Shown: positions 3,110 through 28,473 of the stretch, piece by piece
How the letters are laid out: the number at the start of each line of letters is the position of its first letter
How positions within the stretch are numbered: the stretch's first letter is position 1
Assembly: GCA_903911145.1 (NCBI GenBank)
Contig: CAIWCD010000013.1
Span: 248,001-312,000 of the forward strand
Direction: 5' to 3'
Origin: an uncultured delta proteobacterium
GTDB lineage: Bacteria; Myxococcota; Myxococcia; Myxococcales; 40CM-4-68-19
DNA length: 64,000 bases
Position numbers and translations under genes: made by a program
Notes under the pieces: generated by a model
What the model was told of the DNA's origin: nothing
Databases searched by the model: none
Seen by the model: only the letters and a program-made list of their open reading frames with translations

Positions 3110-3652
3110 CTATTTAATCAGCTTCGTCGCTTCATCGCGCTTCGTCTTGTAGTTCGCGTTGCCCGGCTCATAGGTGAGCGCCATCTTGAAGTTGCGCTCG
3201 GCCGCGGCAAAACGCTGCCCGGCGAAATCCTGCAATCCCGCAAGATAGAACTTGCGCCCTTGAGGCGTAACGCCGACCTCGAGCTCCTTCTCCTTCTTCA
3301 TCTCCTGCTCGCTTGCCTCGACGAAGCGCAGCTTGCTCTGCCGCATCGGTCCGCCGATATCCGCGAGATACTTGGTGCGGCGGATATCATCGCGCAGGCA
3401 GACATATGCCTCATTGATGCGCTTATAGATGCGGCTGATTGAATCCCGCAGCTCGCCATCTGCCAATCGATAGAAGCGATCGGGGTGATAGATGCGCGAT
3501 TCACGGTAATAGGCGAGTTTAATCTCCGCGGGCGTTGCCACCGGCGCGAGTTTCAAGATCTGGAAGTAATCGAGCTCGTCCATGATCTGCGCGAGCGCCA
3601 CCGCCTCGATCTCGAACGGCCCGTCGACGGCGGATGAATCTGCGTAGCTCAC
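3110..3652 (-). CDS. J-domain co-chaperone with C-terminal TPR-like segment
   Basis: A 180-residue protein. A J domain spans about residues 28-97, starting at DYFQILKL, with the diagnostic HPD in IYHPDRF near residue 58 that stimulates Hsp70 ATPase activity. The Gly/Phe and zinc-finger parts of DnaJ are absent. The C-terminal 40 residues (QDFAGQRFAAAERNFKMALT and following) look like one or two TPR helices. The ATG overlaps the stop of the upstream Hsp70 gene by 4 bp, so the pair is translationally coupled and this is very likely the dedicated partner of that Hsp70. It uses AT-ending codons (TAT, AAT, TCA) more than its neighbours. Confidence 0.9.
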   Translation of the reverse strand: MSYADSSAVDGPFEIEAVALAQIMDELDYFQILKLAPVATPAEIKLAYYRESRIYHPDRFYRLADGELRDSISRIYKRINEAYVCLRDDIRRTKYLADIGGPMRQSKLRFVEASEQEMKKEKELEVGVTPQGRKFYLAGLQDFAGQRFAAAERNFKMALTYEPGNANYKTKRDEATKLIK

Positions 3653-5232
3653 GCCGCCGCCCCATCCGAGAGGACCGTCGCAGCGTTCTTCGCCTGCGCC
3701 GCCTGGATCATCTTCTCGGAGAGGCCAGAATTGAGACGAATCGCGCAGGTTGTCTGCTGGCCTGTCTCGAGATCAGCCGCAGTCACGTTGACGATCCCGT
3801 TGGGATCGATCTCGAACGTCACTTCAATGCGCACATCGCCGCGTTCGGCGACTCGGAAGCCGGAGAATTCAAACTCACCGAGAAGTTCGCACTCGGCCGA
3901 TTTATTCGACTCGCCTTGATAGACCTGAATCTTCACCTTCTCCTGCGCGTCGCGGTTGGTCGTATAGGTCTTGCTGCGCTCGATCGGGATCGGCGTGTTC
4001 TTCTCGATCATTGAATCGGTATATCCGCCGACCGTACCAACCCGCAGCGTCAGCGGCGTCACGTCGAGGAGGAAATGCTCGCCCTTCGACTCGAGCAGCG
4101 AGCGGGCCTGCAGTGCAGCTCCCATCGCGACCACTTCGTCGGGATCGATCCCGGTCATGGGATCTTTCTGGAAGTAATGCTTTACGCTGGTGCGGACAAT
4201 CGGCAATCGCGTCGGGCCGCCAACGAGAATCACCGCATCGAGATCGCTCGCGGCCATGCGCGCACTCTGCAGCGCCTCGTCGCAGACCTTGAACGTCCGC
4301 TGCACGAGATCCATCATCATCCGATTAAACTCCGACTCCTGCAGCGTCGCGATCAGATCGAGCCGATTGCCGCTCGGGTCCTGGCAGATCGCCTCGACGT
4401 GGATATTCGCAACACCATCGCGACCGACGTCGATCTTCGCCTTCTCTGCCGCCTCCTTGAGCATCTGCAGGCAATACTTATTCAGCCGCAGATCGATTCC
4501 CGTCTCAGAGAGAAATCGATCTCCCAGCCAGGTCATGATCCGATCGTCGAAATCATCGCCGCCCAGATAGGTATCGCCCGCGGTCGATAGCACCTCGAAT
4601 ACATCGTTGCCGATCTCCAATATGGACATATCGAACGTGCCGCCGCCGAGGTCATAGACGGCGATTCGCTGCGAGAGATCCTTGCCGAACCCGTACGAGA
4701 GCGCGGCCGCGGTGGGCTCATTGAGAATGCGCAGCACCTCGAGTCCGGCGATGCGGCCCGCGTCCTTGGTGGCCTGGCGCTGGTTGTCATTGAAATATGC
4801 CGGCACGGTCACGACGGCCTTGGACACCGAGTGGCCGACGTGCTTCTCGACAATCGCCTTCATCTCCTTGAGCACCAGCGCGGAGATCTCGGGGAGGCTG
4901 TAGAGCGATTCGCGGATCTGGATGCGGACGGAGTTGTTCTCGCCCTCGACGATCTTGTAGGGCATGACCGCCTGCGCCTTGCGCACTTCGTCCGAGAAGT
5001 AGTAGCGGCCGATGAGTCGCTTGGCCGAATAGACGGTGCTCTCGGCGTTGGTGATGATGTTGCGCTTGGCTCCGTTGCCGACGAGGACCTTGCCGTCCTC
5101 GAGGAAGCTCACGACCGATGCGTGCGTGCGCTCGCCGAGCGCGTTGGGAATGACGAGCGGCGCGCCGTTCTCGATGATGGAGACGCACGAATAGCTGGTG
5201 CCGAGGTCGATGCCGATTGCGATCTCGTCCAT
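3649..5232 (-). CDS. Hsp70 (DnaK-like) chaperone lacking the lid
   Basis: A 527-residue protein, about 110 shorter than canonical DnaK. The nucleotide-binding domain is complete: GIDLGTSYSCV at the N-terminus, VPAYFNDNQRQATKDAG, EPTAAALSYG, DLGGGTFD near residue 195 and VGGPTRLP near 335. The substrate-binding beta domain follows (LLDVTPLTLRVG to about residue 500). The C-terminal helical lid is missing and replaced by a short Ala-rich tail. Myxobacteria carry several divergent Hsp70s, some tied to exopolysaccharide and motility, but assignment to one of those is not possible here. It follows the CPBP protease gene by 37 bp and overlaps the J-protein gene. Confidence 0.92.
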   Translation of the reverse strand: MDEIAIGIDLGTSYSCVSIIENGAPLVIPNALGERTHASVVSFLEDGKVLVGNGAKRNIITNAESTVYSAKRLIGRYYFSDEVRKAQAVMPYKIVEGENNSVRIQIRESLYSLPEISALVLKEMKAIVEKHVGHSVSKAVVTVPAYFNDNQRQATKDAGRIAGLEVLRILNEPTAAALSYGFGKDLSQRIAVYDLGGGTFDMSILEIGNDVFEVLSTAGDTYLGGDDFDDRIMTWLGDRFLSETGIDLRLNKYCLQMLKEAAEKAKIDVGRDGVANIHVEAICQDPSGNRLDLIATLQESEFNRMMMDLVQRTFKVCDEALQSARMAASDLDAVILVGGPTRLPIVRTSVKHYFQKDPMTGIDPDEVVAMGAALQARSLLESKGEHFLLDVTPLTLRVGTVGGYTDSMIEKNTPIPIERSKTYTTNRDAQEKVKIQVYQGESNKSAECELLGEFEFSGFRVAERGDVRIEVTFEIDPNGIVNVTAADLETGQQTTCAIRLNSGLSEKMIQAAQAKNAATVLSDGAAA

Positions 5233-5269
5233 GCACTGATGCTAACGCAAAAGCGTCGCGCCCGGGGCG

Positions 5270-6025
5270 TCAGCGCGCGACGATCGTGGTCTGGAGAATC
5301 AGCAGCGTGGCGTTGCAGACAAAGTGGAACAGCGCCGCGCCAGCGATGGTGCCACTGCGCGCGCGCAGCCAGGCGAAGAGGAGCGCTGGGAAGAACGTCA
5401 GGAGACGAAACGGCGCGGGGATGAGGAGGTGGCCGAGCGCGAAGAGAACAGCGGCAACGAAAGCTCCGCGGCCGAGCGAGGCATTGGCGATGCGAAGTCG
5501 GGGAGGCCACTGCTCCTCGAAGAGGCGCGTGACATAGCCGCGGTAGAAGAACTCTTCCGAGAGCGCAACGGCGGCGTGTCCTCCGAGTTGGCCGAGAAGC
5601 GTGAGTGCAACGTCGAGGTTTTCGGGAGCGCGGAAGGCGAACAGGCGCGGCGCAGCGAACGGGGCCGCGAGCTCACCAATCCAGCGCGGCAGCAGCGGAA
5701 CGATCGCGGCGACGTGCAGATAGCCGAGGACAAACGGAGGAAGAACCAGCAGGGAGAGAACGACCGCGTCGACGAGATCTCGCTGCCACCGCGAGAGCGA
5801 GAGGCCCGCATCGGAGGCATCGAGTCCGCGCCGCTCGAGCATCCGCTGCGGAACCCAGAGAAACGCCGCCACCGCGAGCGCACCGACCCACTGGCCGAGG
5901 AACGGGATCGCGCCGGCGAGCAACTGAATCACCGCGAGCGAAAGCAACGTCGCAGCCCAGACGAGCAGCGCCTCGCGCGCCGGACTGCCTCCGAGAAAGT
6001 TGCGGGCGACCACGGGGCGCACCAT
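5270..6025 (-). CDS. CPBP family intramembrane metalloprotease
   Basis: A 251-residue polytopic protein with about seven hydrophobic segments. Motif 1 of the CPBP/Abi (Rce1-like) family is EEFFYRG near residue 160, and motif 2 is FALGH near residue 200, giving the Glu and His residues thought to bind the metal or activate water. It is the likely first gene of the CPBP, Hsp70, J-protein, CvpA operon, with a 37-bp gap to the Hsp70 gene. The first 20 residues are weakly hydrophobic and the ATG has no clear ribosome binding site. Confidence 0.85.
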   Translation of the reverse strand: MVRPVVARNFLGGSPAREALLVWAATLLSLAVIQLLAGAIPFLGQWVGALAVAAFLWVPQRMLERRGLDASDAGLSLSRWQRDLVDAVVLSLLVLPPFVLGYLHVAAIVPLLPRWIGELAAPFAAPRLFAFRAPENLDVALTLLGQLGGHAAVALSEEFFYRGYVTRLFEEQWPPRLRIANASLGRGAFVAAVLFALGHLLIPAPFRLLTFFPALLFAWLRARSGTIAGAALFHFVCNATLLILQTTIVAR

Positions 6026-21712: not shown

Positions 21713-21746
21713 TTTGAGTGCAAATCAAATTGCTTTGCACTCAAAC
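21712..21746. terminator. Palindromic element (site C) between ttcA-like gene and mnmA
   Basis: Arms GTTTGAGTGCAAA (21712-21724) and TTTGCACTCAAAC (21734-21746) pair perfectly over 13 bp around a 9-nt loop. The right arm continues as the family half-site TTGCACTCAAACGATCTGCG. Both stop codons lie in it: the TAG of the ttcA-like gene at its left edge and the TGA of mnmA within its right arm. It is the most complete symmetric copy after site D. Confidence 0.75.
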
Positions 21747-22802
21747 GATCTGCGCGCCCCCCAGCACCGCGTCGCCGCGATAGAAAACAGCGCTCTGGCC
21801 TGGCGCGACGCCGACGGCGGGCTCGTCGAGTTCGACGCGGACCTGCCCCGAATCCGCGAACAACCGCGCTGGGAGCGGGCGGCCGCGATGTCGGATCTGC
21901 ACTTCGCACCGCGCGCCCTCCTCTGGCGGCGCAATCGTCCAGCGCGGACTCGTCGCCTCGAACGCGCGGCGTGACACCTCTTCGTGCGTGCCGACGACGA
22001 CGCGTTGTCGCGAAGCATCGAGCGAGGCCACGTAGAGCGGCAGTTTGCGCGACAGACCGATGCCCTTGCGCTGCCCGACGGTGAAGTGATGCACGCCCCC
22101 GTGCTCGCCGAGCGCGCGGCCGGAGAGATCGACGATCTCGCCCTTCGTCTGCGCGACGCCGTTGCGCTCGAGGAACTTCGGCAACTCCTCGCCGCCCACG
22201 AAGCAGACCTCCATGCTCTCGGGCTTGTCGGCGTTGGGCAGCCCTCGGCTGCGCGCGATTGACCGCACCTCTTCCTTCGTCAAGTCGCCGAGAGGAAAGC
22301 GGACGAGTTGCAGCGCCTCCTGCGTCAAGCCGTGCAGGAAGTAGCTCTGGTCCTTCGCAGGATCGCGCGCGCGCTGAAGCGACCAGGTTCCATCCGACTG
22401 CTGCACGTTGCGCGCGTAGTGCCCGGTCACCAGCGCGTCCGCGCCCAGCTTGCGCGCCCGCTCGAGGAGCCAGTCGAACTTGACGTGATCGTTGCAGCGC
22501 ACGCACGGATTCGGCGTCTCGCCGCGCGCATACGACTGGATGAACGGCTCGATCACCTCGGCGCGAAATCGCTCCTCGGCATCGAAGACGTAGAAGGGAA
22601 TTCCCACCGCCGCCGCAGCACGCCGCGCATCGTAGAGATCATCCGGAGCGCAGCAGGAGCGGCCCGCACGCTCTTTGCCTTCGGGCTGCGAAGTCAGTCG
22701 CAGCGAGATCCCGAGCACGTCGGCAGCCCCGCGAGCATCGGCGCACAGCGCGGCCGCGACGGACGAATCGACTCCTCCACTCATGGCGACGACGGCCGGC
22801 AT
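21741..22802 (-). CDS. mnmA: tRNA-specific 2-thiouridylase MnmA
   Basis: A 353-residue PP-loop enzyme that thiolates U34 of tRNA Lys, Glu and Gln. It has SGGVDSS at residues 8-14, catalytic Cys in NPCVRCN near residue 100 and its partner in EVCFVGG near 199. GQRKGIGL is the conserved loop of the central domain. The length matches the family. CAGGAG lies 7 nt before the ATG. It ends inside the palindromic element shared with the convergent ttcA-like gene. Confidence 0.95.
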   Translation of the reverse strand: MPAVVAMSGGVDSSVAAALCADARGAADVLGISLRLTSQPEGKERAGRSCCAPDDLYDARRAAAAVGIPFYVFDAEERFRAEVIEPFIQSYARGETPNPCVRCNDHVKFDWLLERARKLGADALVTGHYARNVQQSDGTWSLQRARDPAKDQSYFLHGLTQEALQLVRFPLGDLTKEEVRSIARSRGLPNADKPESMEVCFVGGEELPKFLERNGVAQTKGEIVDLSGRALGEHGGVHHFTVGQRKGIGLSRKLPLYVASLDASRQRVVVGTHEEVSRRAFEATSPRWTIAPPEEGARCEVQIRHRGRPLPARLFADSGQVRVELDEPAVGVAPGQSAVFYRGDAVLGGAQIV

Positions 22803-22934: not shown

Positions 22935-23483
22935 ATGAATCCCGTTCACCGCACCGCTTCTCTGCGGCTCATTCCGCTCATCGCGCTGCTCATCGCCGGG
23001 TGCGGTGGCCAGGTCTCGGAAGGACTTCCCGCGACGGCGCTTGGTTGCCACGTCGACGGCGACTGCCCGACCAACTTCATCTGCTCGCAGGGTGCGTGCA
23101 ACTACGTCCCGCCCGCCTGCGTGCAGAACAGCGACTGCGGGGATGGCAACGTCTGCACGAACGGGAACTGCGTCAGCGGAAGCGGCGGAGGAAGCGGCGG
23201 CGGCTCAGGTGGAGGAACTGGCGGCGGAGCAGGAGGCGGGAGCGGCGGCGGTTCGTCCCAGTGCACGCCCGACACCTGGACGAACTACGCGCAGGCCGCG
23301 ATCGGCAACGAGTGCGCGAGCTGCCACCACCACTCGAACCTCACCAGCTACACGACCGTCTACGGCGAGCGCAGCCAGATTGCCTCGCGGATCAACTCGG
23401 GCTCGATGCCGCAGGGCGGCTGGAACACGGCGTCAGACCAGTCGCGCATCACCACCTGGATCTCCTGCGGAGCACCACAATGA
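22935..23483 (+). CDS. Lipoprotein with Cys-rich modules and one c-heme site
   Basis: A 182-residue lipoprotein. The signal peptide ends with lipobox I-A-G-C at residues 22-25. Two Cys-rich EGF-like modules follow (CHVDGDCPTNFICSQGAC; CVQNSDCGDGNVCTNGNC), then a Gly/Ser linker of about 30 residues, then a small domain with one CxxCH heme motif in ECASCHHH. No methionine ligand is obvious; a His of HHH may be the distal ligand. It would sit on the membrane as an electron carrier or sensor. Its stop overlaps the start of the four-His membrane protein (ATGA). Confidence 0.8.
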   Translation: MNPVHRTASLRLIPLIALLIAGCGGQVSEGLPATALGCHVDGDCPTNFICSQGACNYVPPACVQNSDCGDGNVCTNGNCVSGSGGGSGGGSGGGTGGGAGGGSGGGSSQCTPDTWTNYAQAAIGNECASCHHHSNLTSYTTVYGERSQIASRINSGSMPQGGWNTASDQSRITTWISCGAPQ

Positions 23484-24112
23484 TCGCGGCTGCACTGCTT
23501 GCGACCGCGCTCGTCTTCTCCGGCGCGGAACACCCGCTGCTCGCCAGCAACGAGCGTCCCTCTGCCGCGGGCGAGTCGTCGTCTGCCCAGGCTTCCCCAT
23601 CGCTCGACTTCGATCTCCTCGGCGATCAGGGCAAGGAGGCCGCGGACCCCCAGGCGCAGAAGGTGCTCAAGGAGATGCAGACGCGCCGCTTCATGCTCAC
23701 GGTGCACCAGACGGCCGGCTTCGCGCTCGCTGGGCTGATGGTCGGAACGATGGTGACCGGGCAACTCAATTACGCCGACAAGTTTGGCGGCCCCAACACC
23801 GGCCGTTACGAGACCATCCACAGCATCTTCGCGATTTCGACGGAAGTGATCTTCGCCGCCACTGGCGCGCTCGCGCTCCTCTCTCCCGTCCCGGTCGCGC
23901 CTCCGAAGGATGCCGGATGGAGCCGCGCAGATGTGCACCGGTTCGGCATGCTCGGCGCGACCGCAGGCATGGTCGCGGAGGCAGGATTCGGCGCCTGGAC
24001 CGCCTCGCGAGAAGGTGCGCCCGACCAGGCCAAGCTCGGCGCCATTCACCTTGCGATCGGCTACACGACGCTCGCGTTCATGATCGTAGCGGTCGGCGCG
24101 ATCGTCCTCTGA
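23480..24112 (+). CDS. Four-helix membrane protein with one His per helix (b561-like)
   Basis: A 210-residue protein with an N-terminal signal or anchor, an acidic linker, and four hydrophobic helices at about residues 75-95, 110-135, 155-175 and 185-208. Each begins with a histidine: TVHQ, TIHS, DVHR and AIHL. This layout is that of cytochrome b561-type proteins, where four helix-borne His ligate two b hemes, but overall sequence identity is not obvious. In E. coli the b561 homologue yceJ is next to yceI; here a YceI gene is next as well, which supports the reading. It overlaps the upstream heme lipoprotein gene by 4 bp. Confidence 0.7.
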   Translation: MIAAALLATALVFSGAEHPLLASNERPSAAGESSSAQASPSLDFDLLGDQGKEAADPQAQKVLKEMQTRRFMLTVHQTAGFALAGLMVGTMVTGQLNYADKFGGPNTGRYETIHSIFAISTEVIFAATGALALLSPVPVAPPKDAGWSRADVHRFGMLGATAGMVAEAGFGAWTASREGAPDQAKLGAIHLAIGYTTLAFMIVAVGAIVL

Positions 24113-24170
24113 TTTAGTTGCATAAGACAACCATTCCCGCACGACACAACGCTGCACCCTGGAGTTCCCG

Positions 24171-24761
24171 ATGACCGCCCTTCCCGCTCGCGCGTTCCGC
24201 CTGCTTCTCGCGTTCGCCCTCCTCGCCGCCGCCGGTGCCCGCGCGGACGCCCCGGCCGATCACGTCCTTTCGCTTGTCTCGCCAGCATCGACGATGCGCT
24301 ACCACATCGTGCACAAGCTCCACACGGTCGAGGCGACCTCGACGGATCTCGACGGCAAGGCGATGTTCAAGGCCGACGGGACGGTGCAGGTGATGGTTCG
24401 CGCGAAGGTCTCCGGCTTCCGCTCGGGCGACACCAACCGCGATGAGCACATGATGGAAGTGATGGAGGCCGCCTCGTTCCCGACCGTGACGTTCAAGGGT
24501 CTGGCAAAGATCCCGCCGCCGGCTTCGTACCCCGCGAAGGCCGACATCGCGGTCGCGGGCGAGCTTGAGCTGCACGGCAAGAAGTTCCCCGAGACGATCA
24601 ACGTCCATGTCGACATGACCTCGGCGACCGCGTGGCATGTCACGGGAACGTTCAACGTCAGCCTCGACAAGTACTCGATCGAGCGCCCCGCCCTTCTGCT
24701 CGTGAAGATCAGCGACGCCTGCGAAATGGCGCTCGACCTCACGCTCGCCGGCGCCAAGTGA
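24171..24761 (+). CDS. YceI family periplasmic protein
   Basis: A 196-residue secreted protein. The signal peptide ends ARA near residue 24. The lipocalin-like YceI domain shows SPASTMRYHIVHKLHTVEATS, the RDEHMMEVMEAASFPTVTFKG signature and a C-terminal VSLDKYSIERPALLLVKI. YceI proteins bind polyisoprenoids such as quinones, which fits a role in the adjacent redox cluster. The stop overlaps the next gene by 4 bp (GTGA). Confidence 0.92.
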   Translation: MTALPARAFRLLLAFALLAAAGARADAPADHVLSLVSPASTMRYHIVHKLHTVEATSTDLDGKAMFKADGTVQVMVRAKVSGFRSGDTNRDEHMMEVMEAASFPTVTFKGLAKIPPPASYPAKADIAVAGELELHGKKFPETINVHVDMTSATAWHVTGTFNVSLDKYSIERPALLLVKISDACEMALDLTLAGAK

Positions 24762-25222
24762 TCCCCGCGAAGAACAGCGCCGCAGCCGCGCTGCGCCTGG
24801 GTTTGCTCGCACTCGCGCTGGCCGGTGGCGCCGCCTGCGGCATCCCCGATCACAGCGCGGTGATGCGGCCCGGGGAGGACTGCCAGGGCTGCCACAACGG
24901 ACAGATCGCGCCCGCGTGGACAGTGGCGGGCACGGTCTTCAGCGATCCGAATGCGCCGCTCTCTGCAGGCATGCCCGACGCACAGATTCTCATCACCGAC
25001 GCGAACAAGCGCACGCTCACGCTGACCAGCAACTCCGGCGGAAACTTCTACACGAGCGAGATGCTCGACTTTCCGATCAAGGTCGAGATCCAGCGCGGGA
25101 CGTGGCGGATGGCGATGGCCTCGTCTCCGGCGAGCGGCTCCTGCAACAGCTGCCACTCGATTCCGAAGGGCACTCCGTATGTGCCCGGGCGACTCTTCAT
25201 TCCGTACCAGCAGCTCCAATAG
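24758..25222 (+). CDS. Diheme c-type cytochrome lipoprotein
   Basis: A 154-residue lipoprotein starting from GTG, with a lipobox-like G-A-A-C near residue 25. Two CxxCH heme motifs are visible: DCQGCHNG near residue 44 and SCNSCHSI near residue 130. The region between them is beta-rich (VAGTVFSDPNAP, ILITDANKRTLTLTSNSGGNFYTSE) and resembles a carboxypeptidase-regulatory or Ig-like fold. The GTG overlaps the YceI stop, so all four genes from 22935 likely form one operon. Confidence 0.8.
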   Translation: MIPAKNSAAAALRLGLLALALAGGAACGIPDHSAVMRPGEDCQGCHNGQIAPAWTVAGTVFSDPNAPLSAGMPDAQILITDANKRTLTLTSNSGGNFYTSEMLDFPIKVEIQRGTWRMAMASSPASGSCNSCHSIPKGTPYVPGRLFIPYQQLQ

Positions 25223-25232
25223 CCGAGCCCAA

Positions 25233-27380
25233 TCAGCGCGGCGGTGGAAGCCTCGGCAGCGGCTCGGGCTCGATCGACCACTTCTCGTAGGGCGGCACCG
25301 GCAGCGACGGCAGCTCGTCGAGGAAGCGCGACGGCTTCATGAGAATCCGAGCGCGGTCCCGTTCCTCATGCAGCATCGGATAGCAGAGGTAGAGCTCGTC
25401 GCGCGCGCGTGTGGCTGCGACGTAGAAGAGCCGCCGCTCCTCCTCTTCGCCATCTCCCGCGCGTGCATCCCCACGCAGCGCCACCGAACTCGGGAAGCGC
25501 CCGTCGGCGAGCCAGACCAGGAACACCGCGCGCCACTCGAGACCCTTCGCCTGGTGCACGCTCGAGAGCGTCACCTTCTCGTCCGCATCGGCACCCTCAA
25601 TCACGTCTTCGCTCTCGAGCGAATCGAGCAGCGTCAGATCGGCGAGGAACTGCTCGAGCGACTCGGCCTGCAGCGCGTAGTCGGCGAGCTGGCGGACATC
25701 GTCGGCGCGCGCATCGGCGTTGGCGAAACGCAGCTTGAGCGCCTCGCGGTAGCCGGCCTCCTCGAGAACGAACGAGATCATCTCGCTGGGAGATTCGCGC
25801 AGCGACGGCAGAGAGAGCTGCGCGAGCGCTTCGCGAAATCGCCGGAAACCCGCACGGGCCTTGGTCGGGATCGATTCGTCAAGCTGCGTATCACCGAGGT
25901 TCAGATGCGCGCTCTCGCCGCGACGCGCCGACTCATCGAGCCGCGCCCAGAGCGCATCCGCGCTCGCCGCGCCAATTCCCGGCACCAGCTTGACGATGCG
26001 CTTGAACGACAGCTCATCGCGCGGATTGGCGACAAAGCGCAGAAATGCCAGCACGTCCTTGATGTGTGCCTGCTCGAAGAAGCGCACGCCGCTGCGCACC
26101 TGAAACGGGATCCCTCGCCGCAAAAGCTCCATCTGCAGTTCCATCGAGTGGTGGTGCGCGCGATAGAGGATCGCCATCTCCTTGAGCGCGATGCCCTCCT
26201 CGCGCAACTCGAGCAGCCGCTGCGCGACGAACTCGGCCTGCTGCTGCACATCGCGAAGAGGAACGAGCGCAGGCAACAGGCCCCCTTCGCGGTGCGCGCG
26301 CAGCTCCTTGGGAAACTGCCTGCGGTTGTTGCGAATCGACGCGTTCGCCAGCGCGAGGATCGGCGGCGTCGAGCGGTAGTTGGTCGATAGTTGCAATTGC
26401 AAGCATTCCGGCCAGCGCTCGGGGAACTGCAGAATGTTCTCGAAGCGCGCACCGCGAAAACCGTAGATGCTCTGCGCGTCATCGCCGACGACGAGCAGGT
26501 TTCGATGGTCGCGCGCGAGCTCGTCGACGATGCGTCCCTGCAGATGATTGGTGTCCTGGTACTCGTCGACCAGCACCGCCGAGAAGCGCGCGCGGATCGA
26601 TTTCGCCACCTCGGGAAGCTCGAGCAGAAGCCGCTGCCAGTTGAGCAGCAGATCATCGAAGTCCATCGCGTTCATCTGCGCCTTGCGTTCGGCGTAGCGG
26701 CGACAGACCGCGAGCACCTTCTCCTCGATGGCGAGGAACTGCGGATGGCTTGCAGCAAGGACTTCCGCGATCGGCCGCTGCGTGTTGACCGCGCTGCTCC
26801 AGATATCGATGAGCACATCGGCGCGCGGGAAGCGGCGCGTGCCGACGCCGAGGCCGAGGTCAGCCGTGGCCGCGGACATCAGCTCTTTCGAGTCTTCGCG
26901 ATCGAGCAGCGAGAAGCGATCGCGATAGCCCAGCGACGACGCGTGATCGCGCAGCAGCAGGTGCGCGACGTGATGGAACGTGCCGCCCACCAATTTGCGC
27001 AGATCGATTTTGCAGAGCGATTCGACCCGCGCCATCATCTCGCGCGCGGCGCGGTTGGTGAACGTGAGCAGCAGGATCCGCTCGGGCGGCGTGCCCGTCT
27101 CGAGCAACCGCGCCACTCGATAGGTCAGCGTCCGCGTCTTGCCCGAGCCAGCGCCTGCGATGACCAGCGTTGTCCCCTCGGGCGCGAGCGCGACGGCGCG
27201 CTGCTCGGCGTTGAGCGAATCGTAGTCGACGAGGCTGCGCGCGGGCGTGCTGCTCTTGAGCGCGTAGCGGCGCGGGGCAGAGGGAGGCATCGGAGGAGCG
27301 TGCGCTGCGAGCGGCGCAGCGGGAGTCGGCGCGAGTGCGGAGCTGTCCTGCGGAGTCGCGCGCTCCTCTGAGTTTGGCAT
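25233..27380 (-). CDS. UvrD/PcrA-type superfamily 1 DNA helicase
   Basis: A 715-residue ATP-dependent 3'-5' helicase. After a 65-residue Pro/Ala-rich leader come the Q-motif LNAEQRAVA, Walker A GAGSGKT near residue 90, the Walker B-region VDEYQDTN, motif III VGDDAQSIYGFRGA, and SSVHQAKGLEWRAVFLV (motif V). The C-terminus stops soon after motif VI (FYVAATRARDELYL), so the Tudor-like PcrA tail is absent. It acts in repair or replication restart. A promoter TTGACG-N18-TACTGT lies directly upstream, with the -10 only 9 nt from the ATG. Confidence 0.93.
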   Translation of the reverse strand: MPNSEERATPQDSSALAPTPAAPLAAHAPPMPPSAPRRYALKSSTPARSLVDYDSLNAEQRAVALAPEGTTLVIAGAGSGKTRTLTYRVARLLETGTPPERILLLTFTNRAAREMMARVESLCKIDLRKLVGGTFHHVAHLLLRDHASSLGYRDRFSLLDREDSKELMSAATADLGLGVGTRRFPRADVLIDIWSSAVNTQRPIAEVLAASHPQFLAIEEKVLAVCRRYAERKAQMNAMDFDDLLLNWQRLLLELPEVAKSIRARFSAVLVDEYQDTNHLQGRIVDELARDHRNLLVVGDDAQSIYGFRGARFENILQFPERWPECLQLQLSTNYRSTPPILALANASIRNNRRQFPKELRAHREGGLLPALVPLRDVQQQAEFVAQRLLELREEGIALKEMAILYRAHHHSMELQMELLRRGIPFQVRSGVRFFEQAHIKDVLAFLRFVANPRDELSFKRIVKLVPGIGAASADALWARLDESARRGESAHLNLGDTQLDESIPTKARAGFRRFREALAQLSLPSLRESPSEMISFVLEEAGYREALKLRFANADARADDVRQLADYALQAESLEQFLADLTLLDSLESEDVIEGADADEKVTLSSVHQAKGLEWRAVFLVWLADGRFPSSVALRGDARAGDGEEEERRLFYVAATRARDELYLCYPMLHEERDRARILMKPSRFLDELPSLPVPPYEKWSIEPEPLPRLPPPR

Positions 27381-27389
27381 CGGCCGCGG

Positions 27390-27419
27390 ACAGTAGTGAA
27401 CGGGTGTGCAGTTCGTCAA
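27390..27419 (-). promoter_or_regulatory. Sigma-70-like promoter of the helicase gene
   Basis: On the minus strand, TTGACG (27414-27419) and TACTGT (27390-27395) are 18 bp apart. The -10 ends 9 nt before the ATG at 27380, so the mRNA would have almost no leader. There is no ribosome binding site in between. Confidence 0.55.
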
Positions 27420-27540
27420 GGCGAGCGAAAACGGCTGACGCGAATAGCTGGCGGTGCCACGGTGGTCGTTGAGCGCGACCGTACCTTTTGCAGGGTCGCC
27501 GCCGAGGTTGCCTCCCGCGCAGGCCTTGGCGCTTGCGAAC

Positions 27541-28473
27541 TCAGGAGGCCCGGCGCCCCTTTGCGTCAGTCCGCGCCGAGGGCGAAAGTCGGTTGTGCGC
27601 GAGCGCTCCCTGGCTCTTGACGAGGATGAGCTCCGCGAGAATCGACACTGCGATCTCTCCCGGCGTCTTGTCTCCGAGGCGCAGTCCGATCGGCGCGTGC
27701 AGGCGCGGATCATTGCGGTGATCGACGCCCGTGCGCTTCTCGATGCTTCGCAGAAGCAGCGCCACTTTGCGCCGACTGCCGATGAGCCCGATGTAGCGCG
27801 CGGCCGTGCTGAGCGCGGCCTGGAGAACTCCCTCGTCGAGCGCGTGGCAGCGCGTGAGGATGACGACGAAGTCTTCGAGCCCAGGAGAAAGCCCGGCGAG
27901 CGGGGTCTCGGCGAGGTCTGCGCAGAGCACCTGTGTCGCGCGCGCAAAGCGTGACGGATCGGCGAAAGCAGGTCGGTCATCAACAACGACGCAGGAGAGG
28001 CCGACGTCTCCGCAGAGAGTCGCGACCCGCTCGCCCACGTGGCCCGCGCCGTAGAGGAGAACCCGCGCGGGAGGCCGGCAGATGTCGACCAGCACGGAGA
28101 CTTCGCCGCCGCACTTCATGCCGAGGAGATCCGCATCTGGGGGCTCGCCCGGGGCGAGTGACTCGGCCGCATCTCCGCTGGTGTTGAGCGAGAAGCGCAG
28201 CAAGCGAGACACGCCGCCGCTCGAGAGGAGTTGGACTGCGTCGACGATCACCGCCGCTTCCAGCGGGCCGCCGCCAACTGTCCCGCGGATGGAGCCGTCA
28301 GGCGCGACGAGCATCTTCGCGCCGCTGTCGCGCGGAGCCGAGCGATCGGTCGAGGCGACGGTGCAGAGGGCGAACGACTCACGCGCCGCCGAGCGGCGAG
28401 CACACTCGGCGAAGAGCTCCCCCTCTCCCAGCGGCGTCGCCGGTCCGGTTGGCGCTGCGAGACCCGAGCTCAT
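27541..28473 (-). CDS. XdhC/CoxI family molybdoenzyme maturation protein
   Basis: A 310-residue two-domain protein. The N-terminal XdhC/CoxI domain shows STDRSAPRDSGAKMLV and GTVGGGPLEAAV. The C-terminal Rossmann domain shows VLLYGAGHVGERVA near residue 140, and IGLIGSRRKVALL with GEIAVSILAE near the end. XdhC binds molybdenum cofactor and inserts the sulfurated form into xanthine-dehydrogenase-type enzymes. Its ATG overlaps the mocA-like gene stop. No molybdoenzyme gene is in the window. Confidence 0.9.
   Translation of the reverse strand: MSSGLAAPTGPATPLGEGELFAECARRSAARESFALCTVASTDRSAPRDSGAKMLVAPDGSIRGTVGGGPLEAAVIVDAVQLLSSGGVSRLLRFSLNTSGDAAESLAPGEPPDADLLGMKCGGEVSVLVDICRPPARVLLYGAGHVGERVATLCGDVGLSCVVVDDRPAFADPSRFARATQVLCADLAETPLAGLSPGLEDFVVILTRCHALDEGVLQAALSTAARYIGLIGSRRKVALLLRSIEKRTGVDHRNDPRLHAPIGLRLGDKTPGEIAVSILAELILVKSQGALAHNRLSPSARTDAKGRRAS

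Follow-up and report, generated by a model that had tools for sequence, protein, structure and literature searches.

Why cytochrome b561 and YceI genes co-occur is still poorly understood. In the LcoA-BcnA system, which serves lipid-peroxyl detoxification, a b561 together with a YceI lipocalin keeps lipid peroxidation in check; reduction of the lipocalin-bound quinone by the b561 was proposed, a quinone-recycling mechanism with no biochemical test to date (PMC9113575). Two other systems touch on the same components: CybB, which transfers electrons from periplasmic superoxide to quinone (PMC11869295), and Cbp2D of Cellvibrio, in which a YceI-like ubiquinone-binding domain is combined with two c-type cytochrome domains (PMC8981238). 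In eukaryotic b561, the His residues H1 and H3 bind the non-cytoplasmic heme and H2 and H4 the cytoplasmic heme, and in CYBDOM a heme-bearing extracellular domain stands ahead of the core, which consists of TM1-TM4 (PMC10691727).

Here we analyse a locus that combines related elements in another way. It lies in a window (the whole stretch of DNA that was analysed) of 64,000 nucleotides from an uncultured delta proteobacterium.

Layout of the four-gene operon

The locus consists of four genes on the same strand (22935-25222) with overlaps at two junctions, and all of the gene readings agree with those of an earlier note on this DNA:

22935..23483, + strand: lipoprotein 1 gene, 182 aa (ORF reading, Pfam and motif search)
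23480..23483, + strand: ATGA overlap of genes 1 and 2
23480..24112, + strand: gene of a four-His, four-helix membrane protein, 210 aa (putative two-heme b cytochrome)
24171..24761, + strand: gene of a YceI-family periplasmic protein, 196 aa (Pfam and predicted structure)
24758..24761, + strand: GTGA overlap of genes 3 and 4
24758..25222, + strand: lipoprotein 2 gene, 154 aa, GTG start, two CxxCH

The four-His and YceI genes are separated by 58 bp. In the gene reading of the window, the set is isolated between a divergent mnmA-type (tRNA-thiolase-type) gene on the 5' side (21741-22802, minus strand) and a convergent UvrD-type helicase gene on the 3' side (25233-27986, minus strand).

The four-His membrane protein

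The window four-His protein has an N-terminal signal-like segment and a conserved DFDLL motif, followed by RRxxLxxHQ; most of its relatives likewise have a signal-like N-terminal segment, a Pro/Ala-rich linker, and the DFDLL motif ahead of helix 1. In the predicted model, which is of medium quality (pLDDT 78, pTM 0.58), the helices comprise residues 57-103, 109-134, 149-176, and 183-209, and His 76, 114, 153, and 190 are located near the start of helices 1-4, respectively. Their codons, counted from the gene start at 23480, are as follows:

23705-23707, + strand: His76 codon, helix 1
23819-23821, + strand: His114 codon
23936-23938, + strand: His153 codon
24047-24049, + strand: His190 codon

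The claim that each helix carries one His was borne out, and all four are invariant in 34 aligned diverse sequences of the family (relatives 32-47% identical to the window protein), together with R69, R70, Q77, G80, G94, G171, and G194. The His residues are spaced by 38/39/37 residues, and the invariant Gly of the family stand at His+4 or His+18. This one-His-per-helix pattern, the spacing, and the invariant Gly, with an H1/H3 and H2/H4 arrangement as in eukaryotic b561 (PMC10691727), suggest that the protein would bind two b hemes, one at the periplasmic side through His76 and His153 and one at the cytoplasmic side through His114 and His190. The predicted sidedness is taken from the signal-like N-terminal segment, which would place the N-terminus outside and thus H1 and H3 at the periplasm.

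The relation of this protein to known b561 families is distant. The window protein has no family match in Pfam, including no PF01292 match up to E 1, while weak matches, all below the curated cut-off, were obtained for 9/34 members against PF01292 (best E 1.6e-4) and for 12/34 against PF03188, the eukaryotic b561 family (best E 1e-3). A PF03188 search of 145 genomes of the phylum gave one positive, which was not the four-His gene of the source genome. Sequence searches of solved structures with the single sequence and with a profile found nothing relevant, the comparison of the family profile with PF01292 members was not significant, and a Foldseek search with the model gave no significant match. 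In the structural comparison, E. coli superoxide oxidase (5oc0) was the third match (Z 9.6, rmsd 3.5, 126 residues), where a Z of ~10 is at noise level for helical bundles; cytochrome b6 chains, NOX5, and other two-heme four-helix proteins were also among the matches. Because helical bundles readily match each other and Foldseek alone gave nothing significant, these structural matches, like the weak Pfam matches, are compatible with a membrane cytochrome that has two hemes but do not prove one.

The ligand pattern separates the protein from its prokaryotic counterparts. PF01292 members from Myxococcota have a conserved His pair, H-x(about 13)-H, in the last core helix, and prokaryotic b561 of the CybB/LcoA type has two conserved His in helix 4 and needs none in helix 3, whereas the four-His family has one in each helix. 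Judging from these motifs, the protein falls outside the standard family of prokaryotic b561, and its His pattern is that of eukaryotic cytochrome b561. The earlier note had called the gene b561-like but divergent; divergent it is, and the description was understated, considering the lack of a Pfam b561 match and a ligand pattern unlike that of the E. coli type.

The match to superoxide oxidase bears on one alternative function, namely that electrons of superoxide or lipid radicals, collected by the lipoproteins, enter at the periplasmic face and pass to quinone at the heme on the cytoplasmic side. CybB, a four-helix two-heme protein among the top structural matches, has such an activity (PMC11869295), and the invariant Arg-Arg pair ahead of helix 1 would be on the predicted periplasmic side. 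However, the proximity of this pair to a heme is an assumption, the four-His pattern is unlike that of the CybB/PF01292 type, and superoxide would need no dedicated c-heme or Rieske carriers, so that we regard this import of electrons as unlikely.

Homologues of the four-His protein were found in 65/99 related genomes and in 82/179 genomes of the phylum, nearly all from one order, plus three families outside. Outside the phylum, a search with a peptide pattern that came from a narrower alignment, is typical of the diheme branch (see below), and reaches close relatives only yielded myxobacterial and deltaproteobacterial records only. Neither the four-His protein nor lipoprotein 2 matched plasmid sequences. 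In the family tree, the window protein has the longest terminal branch, with 1.01 changes per site, reflecting either fast evolution or poor placement.

The YceI protein and the putative c-heme lipoproteins

As the earlier note had assigned it, the third gene encodes a YceI-family protein. It has the lipocalin-like barrel fold, scored 58.4 bits against Pfam YceI (PF04264; cut-off 23.7), and gave 21 significant Foldseek matches with its model, all of them YceI proteins; the best was Burkholderia BcnB (E 7e-11), and the best structural matches were BcnB, BcnA, and polyisoprenoid binders. It belongs to a divergent subfamily with invariant H48, H51, and NRDxHM. H48 and H93 are common to this subfamily and ordinary YceI proteins. 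The subfamily has an additional invariant His (H51) and Met (M94), beyond the His and RDxH residues of ordinary YceI, and these two residues are possibly a ligand or metal site.

Lipoprotein 1 has a signal peptide with a clear lipobox (LIAGC), two Cys-rich repeats of a type known from myxobacteria, a Gly/Ser linker, and a C-terminal domain of the monoheme c type (CASCH ... MP ... W[IL]xCGxPQ) with one CxxCH, at residue 127. This domain is kept with its CxxCH in the relatives L032, L051, L055, L057, and L207. The MP, whose Met is a possible ligand, is absent in L051 and present in L032, L055, and L057. Lipoprotein 2 has CxxCH at residues 42 and 129, on either side of a carboxypeptidase-regulatory-like stretch; its lipobox (GGAAC) is weak in the window and clear in relatives (e.g., LAAC and LAGC). 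Export signals, lipoboxes, and conserved CxxCH are thus present as had been claimed for a one-CxxCH and a two-CxxCH lipoprotein, with the reservation on the lipobox of the latter.

The source genome encodes ResB, which is required for c-heme attachment by system II. In L058, from an Anaeromyxobacter-type genome, the diheme lipoprotein is extended to 536 aa with ten CxxCH (3296-4906, the same stretch as L087 from 6073), which supports a probable role of the lipoprotein 2 family as electron carrier. On the strength of ResB, this ten-CxxCH relative, and the conserved CxxCH in both families, we consider it credible that both lipoproteins are c-type cytochromes.

Conserved linkage and exchange of partners

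The surroundings of four-His family members were searched with profiles, and the genes of relatives were called by a simple coding-bias method plus profile matches. Among 55 four-His loci, which come from related genomes and hence are not independent, a YceI gene was located within 3.5 kb in 45, some of the absences being contig ends; a double-Rieske-domain protein was found in 29, the diheme lipoprotein in 15, and a lipoprotein 1 relative in five. Three other genomes have the complete set of four genes, arranged as in the window in L032 and L055 and in a different order in L057, while in L051, from the same genus, lipoprotein 1, the four-His protein, and YceI are followed by the contig end. 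The best 15 matches of lipoprotein 2 in 179 genomes of the phylum all adjoin a module gene (four-His in 13, YceI in L208, and lipoprotein 1 in L207), and the source genome has two members of the diheme family, each beside one of its two four-His genes. In L207, the genes of lipoproteins 1 and 2 stand together with no four-His gene (4215-5681), and L208 has YceI and lipoprotein 2 without a four-His gene nearby (4754-5895).

These data agree with the proposal of the earlier note that the four genes form a module, and two of the outcomes that it had named as speaking against this, His residues not conserved and genes unlinked in relatives, were looked for and not found. That the genes are adjacent by inheritance alone, forming no functional unit, we find hardly credible. 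The linkage does come from related genomes that are not independent, with a single partner change on the tree, but the YceI, diheme, Rieske, and lipoprotein 1 genes stay adjacent in varied orders and strands in many genera, and adjacency is also observed outside the order (G110, G179, and G184), with overlapping genes.

In Myxococcaceae-type genomes (L041-L086; e.g., L066 6853-7656), the gene directly after YceI encodes a double Rieske Tat-lipoprotein. The Rieske proteins have Tat-type signals and lipoboxes (LPGC, LAAC, and LSGC), and both Rieske domains contain complete CxH...CxxH motifs in 5/6 inspected proteins; in the L041 protein, the second cluster motif is altered to CPRH. These sister modules (L041-L086, L209, and L215) have the same four-His family, YceI, gene order, and overlaps, with the double Rieske Tat-lipoprotein in place of the diheme lipoprotein of the window. 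Rieske and diheme genes occur together at only one of the 55 loci. This mutual exclusion gives a Fisher p of 3e-5, which we do not use as evidence, since the partner type changed only once on a tree of 54 four-His proteins and the loci therefore do not count as independent. On this tree, the diheme and Rieske partners split at one branch (SH-aLRT 98), while the presence of YceI changes seven times. The two partner types fall on the two sides of this branch and thus mark two old sister forms, one combining the four-His protein and YceI with a diheme lipoprotein and the other combining the same pair with a double Rieske lipoprotein.

The exchange recalls cytochrome bc1/b6f, and the module might be a small analogue of it, a quinol:carrier oxidoreductase with diheme b, Rieske or c, and a quinone site, to which YceI is accessory. 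A diheme-b candidate does occur with either a Rieske Tat-lipoprotein of two clusters or a diheme c lipoprotein, two partners that almost exclude each other, and cytochrome b6 chains are among the structural matches, although these may merely be common helical bundles. The four-His protein has no sequence relation to cytochrome b, and the Rieske loci have no cytochrome c1/f-type subunit; we judge this analogy very unlikely to hold.

The second copy and other redox genes of the source genome

The source genome has a second copy of part of the module (L031 3466-6788, on contig C31), consisting of a four-His gene and a diheme lipoprotein gene with no YceI nearby. This pair is preceded by genes for a class I cytochrome c and a 463-aa protein, which has an N-terminal CxxCH and a barrel-like C-terminus with a C-terminal aromatic residue and resembles a fused cytochrome-porin, the likeness to Cyc2 being one of general appearance only. 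L212 and L213 also have the cytochrome c gene and the porin-like gene as a pair, at a distance from the four-His gene. We rejected a connection with a Cyc2-type iron oxidase as the explanation of the module, the porin-like neighbour being specific to the second copy of the source genome.

The same neighbours are relevant to the possibility of respiratory or outer-membrane electron export, in which the four-His protein would act as a quinol dehydrogenase and supply electrons to the c-heme lipoproteins and, through them, to a periplasmic or outer-membrane acceptor, with YceI ferrying quinone. The two c-heme lipoproteins of the module, the ten-CxxCH relative in the Anaeromyxobacter-type L058, and the cytochrome genes ahead of the L031 copy would all suit such a function, which we consider possible while doubting it: the window operon has no outer-membrane porin gene, in other genomes the four-His gene lacks the porin-like neighbour, and the module is common in Myxococcaceae-like aerobes, where Rieske replaces the c hemes.

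Canonical b561 and YceI proteins are encoded elsewhere in the source genome, so the module is an additional system and not the sole copy; the LcoA-BcnA role may already be filled by these canonical copies.

Proposed function

We favour, tentatively and with somewhat less than even confidence, the view that the operon encodes an electron relay in the inner membrane, of the cytochrome b561-YceI type and most likely protective. The four-His protein, with its two putative b hemes, would carry electrons one at a time between the quinone pool of the membrane and the periplasm; the YceI barrel would keep a quinone or other isoprenoid lipid beside it; and the monoheme and diheme lipoproteins, or the two-cluster Rieske lipoprotein in the sister branch, would be one-electron carriers on the water side. 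The purpose would most likely be to maintain a quinone or lipid antioxidant of the envelope in its reduced state, for which the proposal on LcoA-BcnA is the nearest precedent. This reading draws on the invariant His pattern, the signal-like N-terminal segments, the structural match to 5oc0, the weak Pfam matches, the linkage counts, the YceI fold, the diheme copies beside four-His copies, the module genes beside the best 15 lipoprotein 2 matches, and the LcoA-BcnA precedent; we counted against it the L031 paralogue without YceI, the canonical b561 and YceI elsewhere, the Foldseek search, and the medium quality of the model. The path in the earlier note, from membrane quinol through two b hemes to surface or periplasmic c hemes, has just one of the possible directions; in CybB, the best characterised relative, electrons flow the other way, to quinone from superoxide in the periplasm (PMC11869295).

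A bolder proposal would be that the module is an undescribed quinone-linked oxidoreductase of the envelope, made of a bacterial membrane cytochrome with heme ligands in the eukaryotic b561 pattern, a quinone held by YceI, and a swappable two-centre lipoprotein (diheme c or double Rieske), and as such an independent counterpart of the combination of b heme, Rieske, and c heme in bc complexes. We think this unlikely.

The protective relay would place YceI on the electron path, as more than a lipid carrier. Because the electron carriers are defined, the transfer step is directly measurable.

Comparison with known systems

The LcoA-BcnA pair (E. coli yceJ-yceI type) resembles the window module in that a candidate cytochrome of the four-helix two-heme type is combined with YceI in conserved linkage; with the four-His protein taken as an analogue of b561, the adjacent b561 and YceI genes of that system have their equivalent at 45/55 loci. 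LcoA is, however, a PF01292 cytochrome b561, to which family the four-His protein does not belong, and the window module goes beyond the pair in its divergent YceI subfamily and two c-heme (or double Rieske) lipoproteins. The predicted four-helix bundle of the four-His protein may resemble that of CybB, and two b hemes are proposed for the four-His protein as well; the aligned proteins of the PF01292 type, to which CybB belongs, have two conserved His in helix 4, unlike the family described here. Cbp2D shares with the window module the functional joining of YceI to monoheme c-type domains, but it is one secreted carbohydrate-binding polypeptide without a membrane b cytochrome.

With the core of eukaryotic b561, including CYBDOM, the four-His family shares four His, one in each consecutive helix (PMC10691727). 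The differences are that the four-His protein has four helices instead of the six of single-domain eukaryotic b561, that its members score weakly against PF03188, and that the putative extracellular hemes of the window module would be carried by separate c-type lipoproteins, unlike the CYBDOM domain. If the assignment is true, a b561 His pattern known from eukaryotes occurs in a bacterial family.

The earlier note knew of no described system with this make-up. For its parts this was too strong, since the b561-YceI pair (LcoA-BcnA; PMC9113575) and the combination of YceI with c heme (Cbp2D; PMC8981238) are known. In the searchable literature, whose coverage is incomplete, we found no description of the entire set including c-heme or Rieske lipoproteins, nor of a membrane family with the eukaryotic His pattern in constant association with a divergent YceI. 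What is already known is thus the b561-YceI pair, and what we did not find described are the membrane family, the divergent YceI, and the alternative diheme c and double Rieske lipoproteins. Variants of the four-gene operon are widespread in myxobacteria, and in them a pair of the b561-YceI type is provided with soluble redox partners, two alternatives of which, diheme c and double Rieske, are found in sister branches.
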